This document shows positions 43,511-45,579 of a DNA stretch of 64,000 nucleotides, one piece after another; position 1 is the stretch's first letter; each line of letters begins with the position of its first letter. Made by a program: the position numbers and the translations under genes. Below the pieces are notes generated by a model. It made no database searches. It was given only the letters and a program-made list of their open reading frames with translations, and had not been told where the DNA came from. This DNA comes from Limnobacter sp. CACIAM 66H1 (GTDB lineage: Bacteria > Pseudomonadota > Gammaproteobacteria > Burkholderiales > Burkholderiaceae_B). The stretch covers positions 1 to 64,000 of the forward strand of contig NZ_LUJK01000008.1 in the NCBI RefSeq assembly GCF_001601825.1, read 5' to 3'.

Positions 43511-43939
43511 TCAGATTTCAAGTGGCTTGGGTTGTTGTGCGGAATGCGGGTGCTCGGCCTCAGCGTAGATCTTCAATTTCTTGATCATCGCGTAGCCCAG
43601 AGGACCTTTTGGCAACATGCCTTTCACAGCTTTCTCCAGCGCGCGGCCAGGGAAGCGTTCCTGCATCTTGTCAAAGTTCGTTTCGTAAATACCGCCTGGG
43701 TAACCAGAGTGGCGGAAATACTTCTTGTTCAGGCCTTTGGTGCCTGTAACGCGCAATTTACCGGCATTTACAACAACAATGAAGTCGCCTGTGTCGATGT
43801 GCGGTGTGAATTCAGGTTTGTGCTTACCACGGAGGCGGCGTGCAACTTCACTGGCTACACGTCCCAACACCTTGTCGGTGCCGTCGATCACAAACCACTC
43901 TTGTTTAACCTCACCGGGTTTCGCTGAGTAGGTTTTCAT
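43511..43939 (-). CDS. rplM: 50S ribosomal protein L13
   Basis: L13 is an early-assembling 23S rRNA-binding protein. The 142 residues begin [20 protein letters not shown] and contain [17 protein letters not shown] and [21 protein letters not shown], split here by spacing but both standard. AAGGA lies seven bases before the ATG. The 5' untranslated region is about 108 nt and strongly structured; see the leader entry. Confidence 0.98.
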
Positions 43940-44047
43940 GATTTTTCCTTAAAGATAAAAAAGTGCTTTTTACCTGTCTCCCTACTTGTACATGCAGCCA
44001 GCAATTAATATGCCGGTCTGCAGCCGAAGGGCTCTCCCAACAGGTAA
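43940..44047 (-). promoter_or_regulatory. Structured 5' leader of rplM-rpsI, candidate autoregulatory RNA
   Basis: On the minus strand the transcript would begin UUACCUGU (44047-44040), which pairs perfectly with ACAGGUAA (43977-43970). Enclosed are AGCC-CUUC-GGCU (44033-44022) and a ten-pair stem with one bulged A, GCAG-A-CCGGCA paired with UGCUGG-CUGC (44021-43994). This gives a three-way-junction-like fold followed by the ribosome site AAGGA and the rplM ATG. Ribosomal protein leaders often bind their own product; which protein would bind here is not known. The fold was worked out by eye. Confidence 0.5.
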
Positions 44048-44053
44048 CCCGCA

Positions 44054-44084
44054 ATTTTAGCAAAGTTTTTTGCTTTCGGTTAAA
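44054..44084 (-). promoter_or_regulatory. Probable rplM promoter
   Basis: A good -10 element TAAAAT (plus ATTTTA at 44054-44059) lies seven bases before the point where the leader helix begins (44047). The -35 is weak; TTTAAC at 44084-44079 has a 19-base spacer. Confidence 0.4.
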
Positions 44085-44102
44085 CTTTTTTGGATGTTGG
44101 AT

Positions 44103-44134
44103 AAAAAAAACCCAAGCACTGTGAGGTGCTTGGG
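44103..44134 (-). terminator. Rho-independent terminator of the candidate small RNA
   Basis: A nine-base-pair perfect stem (CCCAAGCAC/GTGCTTGGG) with a six-base loop and eight U on the minus strand. No minus-strand protein gene lies upstream for more than 650 bp, so it must end a noncoding transcript, or act in reverse as a weak plus-strand terminator. Confidence 0.85.
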
Positions 44135-44227
44135 TTTAATCCACCAAAGGAGGAGGGTGGAGGAGACAATCTTGCACCTGAGTGAAACTCTGCGACCCGT
44201 GGTACGTGGTTCATTCAAGTGACTACA
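44103..44227 (-). ncRNA. Candidate intergenic small RNA with anti-Shine-Dalgarno hairpin loop
   Basis: A minus-strand unit of about 125 nt with no coding sequence. A sigma70-like promoter lies upstream (44234-44262). The 3' end is a textbook terminator: CCCAAGCAC and GTGCTTGGG (44111-44119 and 44126-44134) followed by eight U (44110-44103). Just before it the hairpin UCCACC-loop-GGUGGA (44161-44140) exposes a ten-base loop, CUCCUCCUUU, which matches the anti-Shine-Dalgarno end of 16S rRNA; a second CUCCUCC lies upstream near 44165. Such C-rich loops are typical of regulatory RNAs that mask ribosome sites. Expression is not shown by sequence alone. Confidence 0.45.
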
Positions 44228-44233
44228 ATTCGA

Positions 44234-44262
44234 ATTTTAGAGAGTTTTCTGTTGCGGCGCAA
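44234..44262 (-). promoter_or_regulatory. Candidate promoter of the small RNA
   Basis: On the minus strand TTGCGC (44262-44257) and TAAAAT (44239-44234) are separated by exactly 17 bases. The -10 matches five of six consensus positions; the -35 matches only TTG. Confidence 0.35.
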
Positions 44263-44473
44263 GAGTATGTTTTTGTTGTCCGAAAAAAGCAACTTATTCC
44301 ACAATTCAAAAGTGGTTTAAAAAAATATAATAAAAACAATATCTTGCAAAGATTAATAGTGACTGACCGGTTATTTGTTAAGCGGAATTATTAAAATAGA
44401 GCAATTTTTCAACTTCTTTTCAACAAATATTGTGCAACGCATAATGAGTGATTAATCATAAATAAGGAGTTTT

Positions 44474-44896
44474 ATGGAAGCCGAAGTTAGCTGGTCGGGG
44501 TTACCCGGCATGTCATTTGTAGCCACGACAGGCAGTGGACATATGTTGTGTATGGATGGTGCCCCGGACGGTGGCGGTAATAACCTGGCCCCTCGCCCTA
44601 TGGAAGTGGTTTTGGCAGGCACCGGTGCCTGTACTGCCTATGATGTGGTGTTGATTTTGCGCAAAAGCGGTCAAGATATTCGCAATTGCAAGGTGAAAAT
44701 GAGCGCCGAGCGGGCCGAAGAGGCGCCGAAGGTTTTCACCAAGATCAACTTTCATTTTCAGGTGATCGGGCGGGGGCTAAAGCCCAATTTGGTTGACCGC
44801 GCAATCAAGTTGTCTCATGAGAAGTACTGCTCAGCGTCCGCCATGCTTGGCAAAACAGCTGAGTTGGTGTTTACGCACGAAATTATCGAAGATTAA
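44474..44896 (+). CDS. OsmC family protein
   Basis: A member of the OsmC/Ohr superfamily, 140 residues. These proteins reduce organic hydroperoxides with paired cysteines or have unknown roles. Family blocks are RPMEVVLAGTGACTAYDV, which holds the first conserved cysteine, and HEKYCSASAMLGKTAEL, which holds the second. It is closer to the YhfA-like group than to Ohr. AAGGAG precedes the ATG. Its 3' end overlaps coq7, which converges on it, by four bases. Confidence 0.9.
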   Translation: MEAEVSWSGLPGMSFVATTGSGHMLCMDGAPDGGGNNLAPRPMEVVLAGTGACTAYDVVLILRKSGQDIRNCKVKMSAERAEEAPKVFTKINFHFQVIGRGLKPNLVDRAIKLSHEKYCSASAMLGKTAELVFTHEIIED

Positions 44897-45579
44897 ATTT
44901 TTTGTGCCAGTGTGGTCATGACCTTCGACATTGCGGTCATGGCCAGTTTCACTGGCATCGGCAAATTGTTAGCGCCTTGATCGATTGCAGTTTGCCCATG
45001 TTCAATCTCGTCCTGGCGCATCTGTTCCAGAATTGCCCTTGATTTCTGATCACCCGCGGGCAGTTTGCCCAAGTGGTCATTCAAGTGCTTTTCAACCTGC
45101 CTCTCGGTCTCAGCCATGAAACCGAGGCTCACTTTGTCGCCCAGTGTGCCCGCGACAAATCCCAAAGCAAATGCACCACCGTACCAAAATGGGTTCAACA
45201 GACTGGGACGCGCACCCAGTTGGTCCAGGCGCTCTTGGGTCCATGCCAGGTGGTCGGCTTCCTCTTTGGCAGCGTGATCAAACAAAGCCTTTTTTTCAGG
45301 GTCCTTGCTGGCCAGTGCCTGAGCCTGATAAAGCGCCTGTGCGCAGATTTCCCCCACGTGGTTTACACGCATCAGGCCAATTACCTGTTCTTTGTCTGAA
45401 TCGCTGAGTTGCTCTACCGGCCAGGTTTGTCCGGCTGGGTTGGGCCGTTGTGCCACAGGCGTTGCGGCCAAAGTTTTCAATGCTTTGTCCAGTTCGCCAA
45501 TGACTGCATCCAGAGAAGGCAGCTTCGGGAGGCTTGGAAAGCCGGGAAGGCCAGTAAAGCGGGGAGGTTGATTTGGCAT
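44893..45579 (-). CDS. coq7: 2-polyprenyl-3-methyl-6-methoxy-1,4-benzoquinone monooxygenase (Coq7)
   Basis: Coq7 is the di-iron hydroxylase of the penultimate ubiquinone step; it replaces UbiF in many Betaproteobacteria. The 228-residue protein carries the iron ligands in RVNHVGEICAQALYQ, AKEEADHLAWTQERL and RQDEIEHGQTAID. GFVAGTLGDKVSLGFMAETE is the conserved hydrophobic middle. The N-terminal 60 residues are less conserved. It converges with osmC (four-base overlap). Confidence 0.95.
   Translation of the reverse strand: MPNQPPRFTGLPGFPSLPKLPSLDAVIGELDKALKTLAATPVAQRPNPAGQTWPVEQLSDSDKEQVIGLMRVNHVGEICAQALYQAQALASKDPEKKALFDHAAKEEADHLAWTQERLDQLGARPSLLNPFWYGGAFALGFVAGTLGDKVSLGFMAETERQVEKHLNDHLGKLPAGDQKSRAILEQMRQDEIEHGQTAIDQGANNLPMPVKLAMTAMSKVMTTLAQKI

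Follow-up and report, generated by a model that had tools for sequence, protein, structure and literature searches.

A small RNA of family RF02278 with a PhaR-type box over its predicted promoter in Limnobacter

The sRNA gene and its locus

The window (the whole stretch of 64,000 nucleotides from Limnobacter sp. CACIAM 66H1 that was analysed) contains a neighbouring gene set that was identified by Pfam as coq7, osmC, rplM, and rpsI, and a small RNA (sRNA) gene situated between the osmC-like gene and rplM (Table 1). Sequence inspection recovered, all on the minus strand, the elements listed in the original prediction, namely a promoter with a 17-bp spacer, a stem, a loop, a second CUCCUCC, and a terminator with a U tail. 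The predicted mature region (44168-44102, 67 nt) folds with -26.9 kcal/mol (z = -6.1; 0/200 shuffled sequences were as good) into two hairpins, the second of which is the intrinsic terminator, and leaves a C/U-rich 5' end and loop unpaired according to the fold and the terminator scan. A 27-nt piece folded alone (44168-44142), in which the stem is cut, was not unusual (z = -0.9). The terminator was the sole terminator-like site in positions 43900-44500 (shuffle mean 0.5). The predicted promoter is weak by consensus (8/12 overall, 3/6 in the -35), which is why the promoter scan did not list it, and is backed by conservation, not by consensus.

Table 1. Features of the sRNA locus and its neighbours (positions in the window).
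Feature	Position	Strand	Basis
Predicted primary transcript of the sRNA gene, ~125 nt	44102..44227	-	Start set 7 nt past the -10, as mapped for S17
Mature sRNA region (predicted)	44102..44168	-	RF02278 model positions 1-64 of 64; 65.9 bits, gathering 50
Pairing site 1 UGUCUCCUCC, 5' end of mature RNA	44159..44168	-	Identical across the 16 aligned genus loci; counterpart of Site 1 (5' end) in S17 (PMC11722255)
Hairpin 1, UCCACC 44161-44156 / GGUGGA 44145-44140	44140..44161	-	Fold
Anti-Shine-Dalgarno loop CUCCUCCUUU, pairing site 2	44146..44155	-	Sequence
Second CUCCUCC, last three bases also in stem	44165-44159	-	Sequence
Intrinsic terminator, 12-pair stem 44137-44126 / 44119-44108, U tail to ~44103	44103..44137	-	Fold and terminator scan
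-35 element TTGCGC	44257..44262	-	Sequence and genus conservation
-10 element TAAAAT	44234..44239	-	Sequence and genus conservation; 17-nt spacer to -35
PhaR-type box TTGCGCCGCAACA overlapping the -35; core TGCGCCGCA 44261-44253	44250..44262	-	Matches TTGCRNYGCAMMA
rplM (ribosomal protein L13), downstream neighbour	43511..43939	-	PF00572, 148.9 bits
osmC-like gene, divergent neighbour	44474..44896	+	PF02566, 60.5 bits
coq7, upstream neighbour	44893..45579	-	PF03232, 162.9 bits

Across 16 aligned loci of the genus, the 5' end TGTCTCCTCCACCC and the TTGC at the -35 were invariant, and the leader from the start site to the seed (the 29 nt by which related loci were found) varied in sequence and length. 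ATG/GTG open reading frames (ORFs) of at least 15 codons that reach the seed were present in 7/16 loci, where they do not share a single frame, and no small ORF was common to all 16, in keeping with the claim that the element contains no gene. The variable leader, the retained 5' end, and the lack of common ORFs fit a disposable leader joined to a conserved processed product. Loss of the loop or of the stem pairing in relatives had been set beforehand as a refuting test. The loop was unchanged in 15/16 genus loci (L018 differs), and the arms can pair in all 16; in L015 and L020 the 3' arm carries two extra nucleotides. Since no 16S rRNA was found in the assembly of the organism itself, the 16S sequences of two genus relatives were used for comparison. 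As predicted, the loop resembles the 3' end of 16S rRNA (GGATCACCTCCTTTCT), with which it has CCTCCTTT in common, and CACCTCCTTT is present in the 16S 3' end of the two relatives. This evidence is consistent with an sRNA whose precursor measures about 125 nt and whose hairpin has an anti-Shine-Dalgarno loop.

The location upstream of rplM, which formed part of the original prediction, is true of the window and incidental otherwise, as many relatives have coq7 adjoining and no rplM in the fetched DNA. Among the matches listed, 52/121 seed places have a same-strand rplM no more than 1,200 nt downstream and 63/121 a same-strand coq7 no more than 800 nt upstream, both counts being affected by locus ends that clip neighbours. 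The order coq7-osmC-sRNA-rplM recurs in these named loci, and in the Alcaligenaceae among them the sRNA lies behind coq7. Past the sRNA terminator, the minus strand of the window carries TTAACC-18-TAAAAT with a TG before the -10 (44083-44054), likely a separate promoter of rplM. A betaproteobacterial-type coq7-osmC-sRNA-rplM-rpsI locus was also found on a contig titled as a Klebsiella pneumoniae MAG (L126), which is most likely mislabelled or misbinned.

Family affiliation and distribution

An Rfam search returned a full-length match to RF02278, 'Betaproteobacteria toxic sRNA', with 65.9 bits against a cut-off of 50, the one above-threshold Rfam match in the whole window. A named family therefore exists, although the original prediction had not been able to place the RNA in one. 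RF02278 was above its cut-off in 16/16 genomes of the genus and in 114/300 genomes of the order; in a class-wide sample it was above the cut-off in 3/274 genomes, all three from the order, and 80 others had weaker matches (E up to 0.001). The exact 29-nt seed occurred in at least 120 contig stretches, and among the matches listed three loci (L079, L088, L180) have it adjoining an rplM 99-100% identical to that of the window. Hairpin 1 had at least four minimum free energy (MFE) pairs in 79/87 distinct homologues and the CU core lay inside the MFE loop in 72/87; changes in this hairpin were taken from MFE folds alone and are not proof of covariation. That the RNA belongs to an already known family, of which it is a local new copy, is well supported.

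Three other families were rejected because the scores lay far below gathering: NmsRb (RF02877; 26.7 bits, gathering 52), anti-hemB (RF02837; 24.9 bits, gathering 49.5), and ar14 (RF02344; 23.6 bits, gathering 58.8). The aligned models of NmsRb and anti-hemB have a hairpin-terminator layout similar to that of the window RNA. Cuckoo (CcsR) RNAs are CCUCCUCCC motif RNAs adjoining a DUF1127 gene. The comparison with them drawn in the original prediction stands as a likeness only, as RF02278 alone reached its Rfam threshold; identification as a cuckoo RNA was rejected because the neighbours are rplM, osmC, and coq7, not DUF1127, the loop is CUCCUCCUUU, and no Rfam match is so named. The original 'toxic RNA' paper is that of Kimelman from 2012. 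RF02278 was named for growth inhibition in E. coli (PMC5688073).

Relationship to S17 and ncS27

The S17 RNA of B. pertussis, located between BP3151 and coq7, is transcribed from its own promoter as the 190-nt S17L, which RNase E cuts to the stable 67-nt S17S (PMC11722255). It is Hfq-dependent and acts as a repressor of mRNAs in which the ribosome site pairs with either its 5' end or its loop; for BP2158, a sigma-54 activator, the repression was shown to be direct (PMC11722255). Under the name CT_433, the same RNA had 36 RIL-seq chimeric partners with a Shine-Dalgarno-like motif (PMC12235514). In the S17 study, the RF02278 RNAs were regarded as a different family whose members match S17 very well (PMC11722255). 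By their sequences, the Bordetella RNAs at the S17 locus are themselves RF02278 members, as two Bordetella loci beside coq7 (L073, L176) scored 69.6 bits, which would join the S17 and 'toxic RNA' literatures.

The window RNA and S17/CT_433 share the location beside coq7, membership in the same family as judged from Bordetella relatives, and two C/U-rich pairing sites, and the promoter of the window RNA is conserved in the genus at the sequence level. The comparison was made via these relatives, B. pertussis being outside the locus set. The published S17 promoter elements (-35 TTGCAT, -10 TACTAT, 17 bp) equal those of B. hinzii (L176), where TTGCAT starts a box of the type described below. The two RNAs differ in the length of the precursor (about 125 nt here, 190 nt there), and the small ORFs are inconsistent between relatives here. 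With the start set 7 nt past the -10, the window RNA is predicted to be 125 nt long. Applied to relatives, this rule puts the transcript at 188 nt in both B. hinzii and B. pseudohinzii, at 149-189 nt in four further Bordetella loci, and at 92 nt in three loci, two of Paraburkholderia and one of Burkholderia; it reproduces, from sequence, the published lengths of S17L (190) and ncS27 (92).

The RNAs ncS27, ncS03, ncS05, and ncS62 of Burkholderia cenocepacia likewise belong to RF02278 and form a short double hairpin, and further resemble the RNAs described here in having several paralogues per genome and in pairing, as is predicted for the window RNA, with ribosome-binding sites (RBS; PMC5688073, PMC4603805). 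For ncS27 (92 nt), the transcript and growth effects were shown, with overexpression slowing growth (PMC5688073). Its length equals that predicted for the Burkholderia and Paraburkholderia RNAs at the osmC-rplM locus, from which single correspondence ncS27 probably occupies the same locus as the window RNA; the locus had to be deduced in this way because B. cenocepacia was outside the loci and the neighbours were published as locus tags only. The Burkholderia loci differ from the window in that L107 and L155, the two with 260 nt upstream, are without the core box.

A PhaR-type box over the -35 element

The original prediction of the element was right in part and missed a PhaR-type box that overlaps the -35. 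Footprinted consensus sequences of PhaR binding sites are TGCRNYGCASMA in Bradyrhizobium (PMC6201568) and TG[N]TGC[N]3GCAA in Herbaspirillum, where the protein is called PhbF (PMC3206438), and a palindrome YTKNTGCRNYGCANMAR is known from R. eutropha (PMC12849132). In Herbaspirillum seropedicae SmR1, both PhbF (PMC3206438) and four RNAs of family RF02278 (PMC7011215) have been described, and a phaP1 lacZ fusion was assayed in E. coli in the presence and absence of PhbF (PMC3206438). The window site has the TGC-RNY-GCA core, with one mismatch to each of the two consensus sequences and one mismatch over 17 positions to the R. eutropha palindrome, and TTGC-N3-GCA across the -35 is kept in 16/16 promoters of the genus. 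The genome encodes PhaR itself (PF07879, 104.8 bits, and PF05233), behind a short-chain dehydrogenase gene on the phaC contig. It contains the 13-mer TTGCRNYGCAMMA 31 times, against 5 times for the reversed pattern, with palindromic sites counted on both strands; one such box lies 56 nt before the likeliest phaC start and another before a phasin gene. Further 13-mers were seen near the genes of aconitase B, acyl-CoA dehydrogenase, and AhpC peroxiredoxin, and one inside an ORF beside an aldehyde dehydrogenase gene (L213, L207, L197, L193).

PhaR was positive in 203/300 genomes of the order. Of the 92 loci from the 114 above-cut-off genomes, 90 were counted, one per genome (L228 and L249, with no seed at the expected place, were dropped), and loci were regarded as syntenic if the fetched stretch contained a tblastn match (E up to 1e-6) to the rplM, rpsI, OsmC, or Coq7 of the window. 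At syntenic loci, the core TGCRNYGCA was present within 260 nt upstream in 47/51 PhaR-positive versus 1/8 PhaR-negative genomes (Fisher p = 7e-6, ignoring kinship), and the exact 13-mer in 27/51 versus 0/8; the reversed motif was found in 0/51 of the PhaR-positive genomes. The 47 boxed genomes cover all 13 PhaR-positive families of the set, and four PhaR-positive loci are without the core box. The eight PhaR-negative genomes span four families, and the lone core box among them is at -237. For non-syntenic copies, the box accompanied 3/11 PhaR-positive and 0/20 PhaR-negative genomes. Within one genus (g5), a genome with PhaR has the box (G190) and another has neither (G310).

The named loci were found by the exact 29-nt seed and are not a random sample; they overlap in part with the order genomes, so that the two counts are not independent. 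Ten of the 121 seed places had less than 260 nt upstream and were dropped; L132, a locus that has a core box and in which the three neighbours are missing, was counted apart. Among the matches listed, 95/110 named loci have the core box (one window per locus; shuffles gave a mean of 4.0 and a maximum of 7), compared to 3/102 downstream control windows, and PhaR was found in 40/40 genomes checked, a selection from the 120 named loci, six of them Bordetella. Where the 13-mer and 260 nt upstream were available (n = 76 of the listed named loci), TANNNT followed 17 nt past the -35 hexamer in 67, at 16 or 18 nt in six, and at none of these distances in three.

Of the 15 listed named loci without the core box, nine are from Cupriavidus (out of ten), two from Burkholderia, and one each from Ralstonia, Oligella, Aquabacterium, and an unclassified MAG. 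PhaR was present in 4/4 box-less cases checked (L069, L103, L107, L125). Four Ralstonia-like loci that were counted as boxed have the core box at -34, away from any recognised promoter, and all five Ralstonia-like loci among the matches listed are without a box at the promoter. As PhaR is kept and the box is absent at these promoters, the Cupriavidus-Ralstonia-Burkholderia lineage has mostly lost the box, and the rule fails there. A near-box ATTTCGCANTGCAAATT, possibly a relocated or different operator, occurs 149-166 nt upstream of the seed in five Cupriavidus and one Ralstonia without the core box (L070, L103, L130, L152, L162, L165), with one or two changes in three more of the nine box-less Cupriavidus loci, and at -86 in Burkholderia L155. 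From this sequence comparison we infer that the case for PhaR control is strong in many families and that such control would be absent in most of the Cupriavidus-Ralstonia-Burkholderia loci seen.

The same sRNA could have a TTGC-N3-GCA that is a mere conserved core promoter or the site of a regulator other than PhaR. The left half of the box is also the -35, so that some degree of conservation would be expected there even if PhaR played no role. The sRNA is kept without the core box in nine of ten Cupriavidus loci and in both testable Burkholderia loci (PhaR being present for L103 and L107), and Ralstonia-like loci keep it without a box at the promoter. However, the GCA half lies in the spacer, where a core promoter requires no particular sequence, and is nevertheless invariant in the genus, and the box tracks the presence of PhaR and also precedes phasin genes and phaC. 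This explanation deserves consideration and is on balance unlikely.

Phasin genes and paralogues

As a positive control, 30 phasin loci were examined, these being the best matches from 98 positive genomes of 150 (two from the genus, one from the genome itself). The core box was present within 420 nt before the Pfam match in 27/30 of them. The best paralogue of the sRNA in the same genome (G000:C44:9197-9261, plus strand; L002 / L285), which scores 42.1 bits, below the cut-off, starts 20 nt past the stop codon of a PhaR-boxed phasin gene, and all 10 fetched loci with the paralogue TGTCTCCTCGTTCC (L002, L022, L024-L031) are behind a phasin gene. Within 200 nt past the stop, a C/U motif was found in 10/30 phasin loci, one of which (L293) does not fit a hairpin-terminator fold; nine loci from six families (f1, f7, f20, f38, f48, f49) have a hairpin and terminator behind the gene, and no double hairpin was seen behind the other 21 phasin genes. 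Five of the ten C/U motifs matched RF02278 with E below 0.05, none above the cut-off. These sequences thus suggest that phasin mRNAs bear a similar double-hairpin design in a portion of the order.

Additional sub-threshold relatives were observed in the genome. One, with 30.5 bits (G000:C7:90761-90818, plus strand; L005), is an RF02278-like hairpin and terminator immediately behind a phage capsid gene (PF05065), with a head-tail connector gene (PF05135) following, and may be a version carried by a phage. Two others (G000:C12:48760-48822 and C5:64330-64382; L003, L004) have a TGTCTC start and a terminator in common, and similar copies exist in genus relatives (L023, L032, L033).

Candidate targets

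The pattern AGGAGACA followed within 1-12 nt by ATG had 29 matches in the genome, compared to 3 for the reversed pattern; since AGGAG is itself a ribosome site, this enrichment is partly generic. Twenty of the 29 matches were annotated, the other nine being two repeat sites and seven ORFs of 2 to 138 codons. According to Pfam, the candidates comprise two Fe-alcohol dehydrogenases, a Zn-alcohol dehydrogenase, an acyl-CoA dehydrogenase, a fatty-acid desaturase, a FadL-type porin, DUF1302 and DUF1329 proteins, a glucose/sorbosone dehydrogenase, and SoxY/SoxZ. A GAF/sigma-54 activator is of the class of the verified target of S17. Candidates outside carbon metabolism are two response regulators, a PP-loop protein, and a HAD hydrolase, and the list further contains a peptidase and one protein without a family.

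Proposed function and alternative explanations

The explanation that we favour as a whole, and consider quite probable, is that of an RF02278 counterpart of S17 that blocks ribosome-binding sites under the control of PhaR and polyhydroxybutyrate (PHB). The window RNA would be the Limnobacter counterpart of Bordetella S17/CT_433, given the same family and the same coq7 neighbourhood, and probably also that of Burkholderia ncS27. It would act in trans. Transcription from a sigma-70 promoter of its own would yield a precursor of about 125 nt, which RNase E probably trims to about 67 nt. Together with Hfq, the UGUCUCCUCC end and the CUCCUCCUUU loop would pair with ribosome-binding sites of the GGAGGAG type, and this pairing would block translation of uptake and catabolic genes. 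PhaR, a repressor that senses PHB granules, would bind the -35 box and keep the sRNA gene off; when PHB forms, PhaR would move to the granules, so that the sRNA is released and the metabolism of incoming carbon damped. Simultaneously, the second family member would be switched on as part of the 3' UTR of the phasin mRNA, whose gene has a PhaR box.

A circuit like the one proposed here has a precedent in MmgR of Sinorhizobium meliloti, in which a PhaR box is also found in an sRNA promoter and PhaR (AniA) binds (EMSA) and represses the promoter of the sRNA gene mmgR (PMC12542648, PMC8401924). MmgR differs in being alphaproteobacterial and in that its likely targets are phasin genes (PMC12542648, PMC8401924), and none of the Rfam matches to the window RNA bears that name. 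How the accumulation of RF02278-type sRNAs is controlled was stated as an open question (PMC5688073), Fig. S3 of the same paper displays a 'common upstream motif' of three homologues, and the authors of the S17 study postulated an unidentified repressor of its promoter (PMC11722255). In the literature searched, no test of PhaR binding at this sRNA promoter was found for any organism. The matches listed in the literature contained no connection between PhaR and RF02278 RNAs, with subscription papers, including that on NcS27 from 2019, mostly outside this scope. PhaR, PHB, and phasin are not mentioned in the text of the S17 paper (PMC11722255) or the main text of PMC5688073, nor are PhaR, hydroxybutyrate, phasin, phaP, or phaC in the RIL-seq paper (PMC12235514). 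The apparent novelty, as far as the sequences indicate, appears to be the PhaR-type box upstream of the sRNA.

Apart from the core-promoter explanation discussed above, three further alternatives were weighed. As a mimic of the 16S 3' end, the RNA might be a global translation brake ('toxic RNA') that masks Shine-Dalgarno sites generally. This would suit the CCUCCUUU that the loop shares with the 16S 3' end of two relatives, the naming of the family for E. coli growth inhibition, and the slower growth upon ncS27 overexpression (PMC5688073), but overexpression of S17S spared exponential growth of E. coli and caused a modest impairment on entering stationary phase (PMC11722255), and CT_433 has a set of 36 chimeric partners (PMC12235514), so that we regard a global brake as improbable. 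It is highly improbable that the RNA is a cis-acting leader or attenuator of the rplM-rpsI operon, which it precedes directly on the same strand; this possibility was rejected because of the complete terminator, the separate promoter-like site before rplM, and the presence of rplM downstream at 52/121 places among the matches listed, where coq7 contexts without rplM were also found. Least credible of all is a second role as the mRNA of a small peptide, an idea prompted by the 32-codon ORF of S17L; a 44-codon ATG ORF does overlap the window RNA, but no ribosome site is evident before its ATG, and overlapping ORFs occur in 7/16 genus loci and in differing frames.

Implications for the PhaR regulon

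Beyond the window, the counterpart of S17 under PhaR control may be one case of a wider arrangement, which we hold with moderate confidence. RF02278 sRNAs would then constitute the post-transcriptional arm of the PhaR regulon in much of the Burkholderiales, with the box over the -35 at the coq7/osmC/rplM locus, double hairpins in the phasin 3' UTR in several families, storage status throttling the translation of uptake and catabolic genes, and PhaR as the missing S17 repressor in Bordetella. The PhaR box provides a named, testable candidate for the control of RF02278 sRNAs across many PHB-storing Burkholderiales. If this is true, carbon storage would be linked to an sRNA that acts broadly by blocking RBS, and the link would explain what switches the RNA on.
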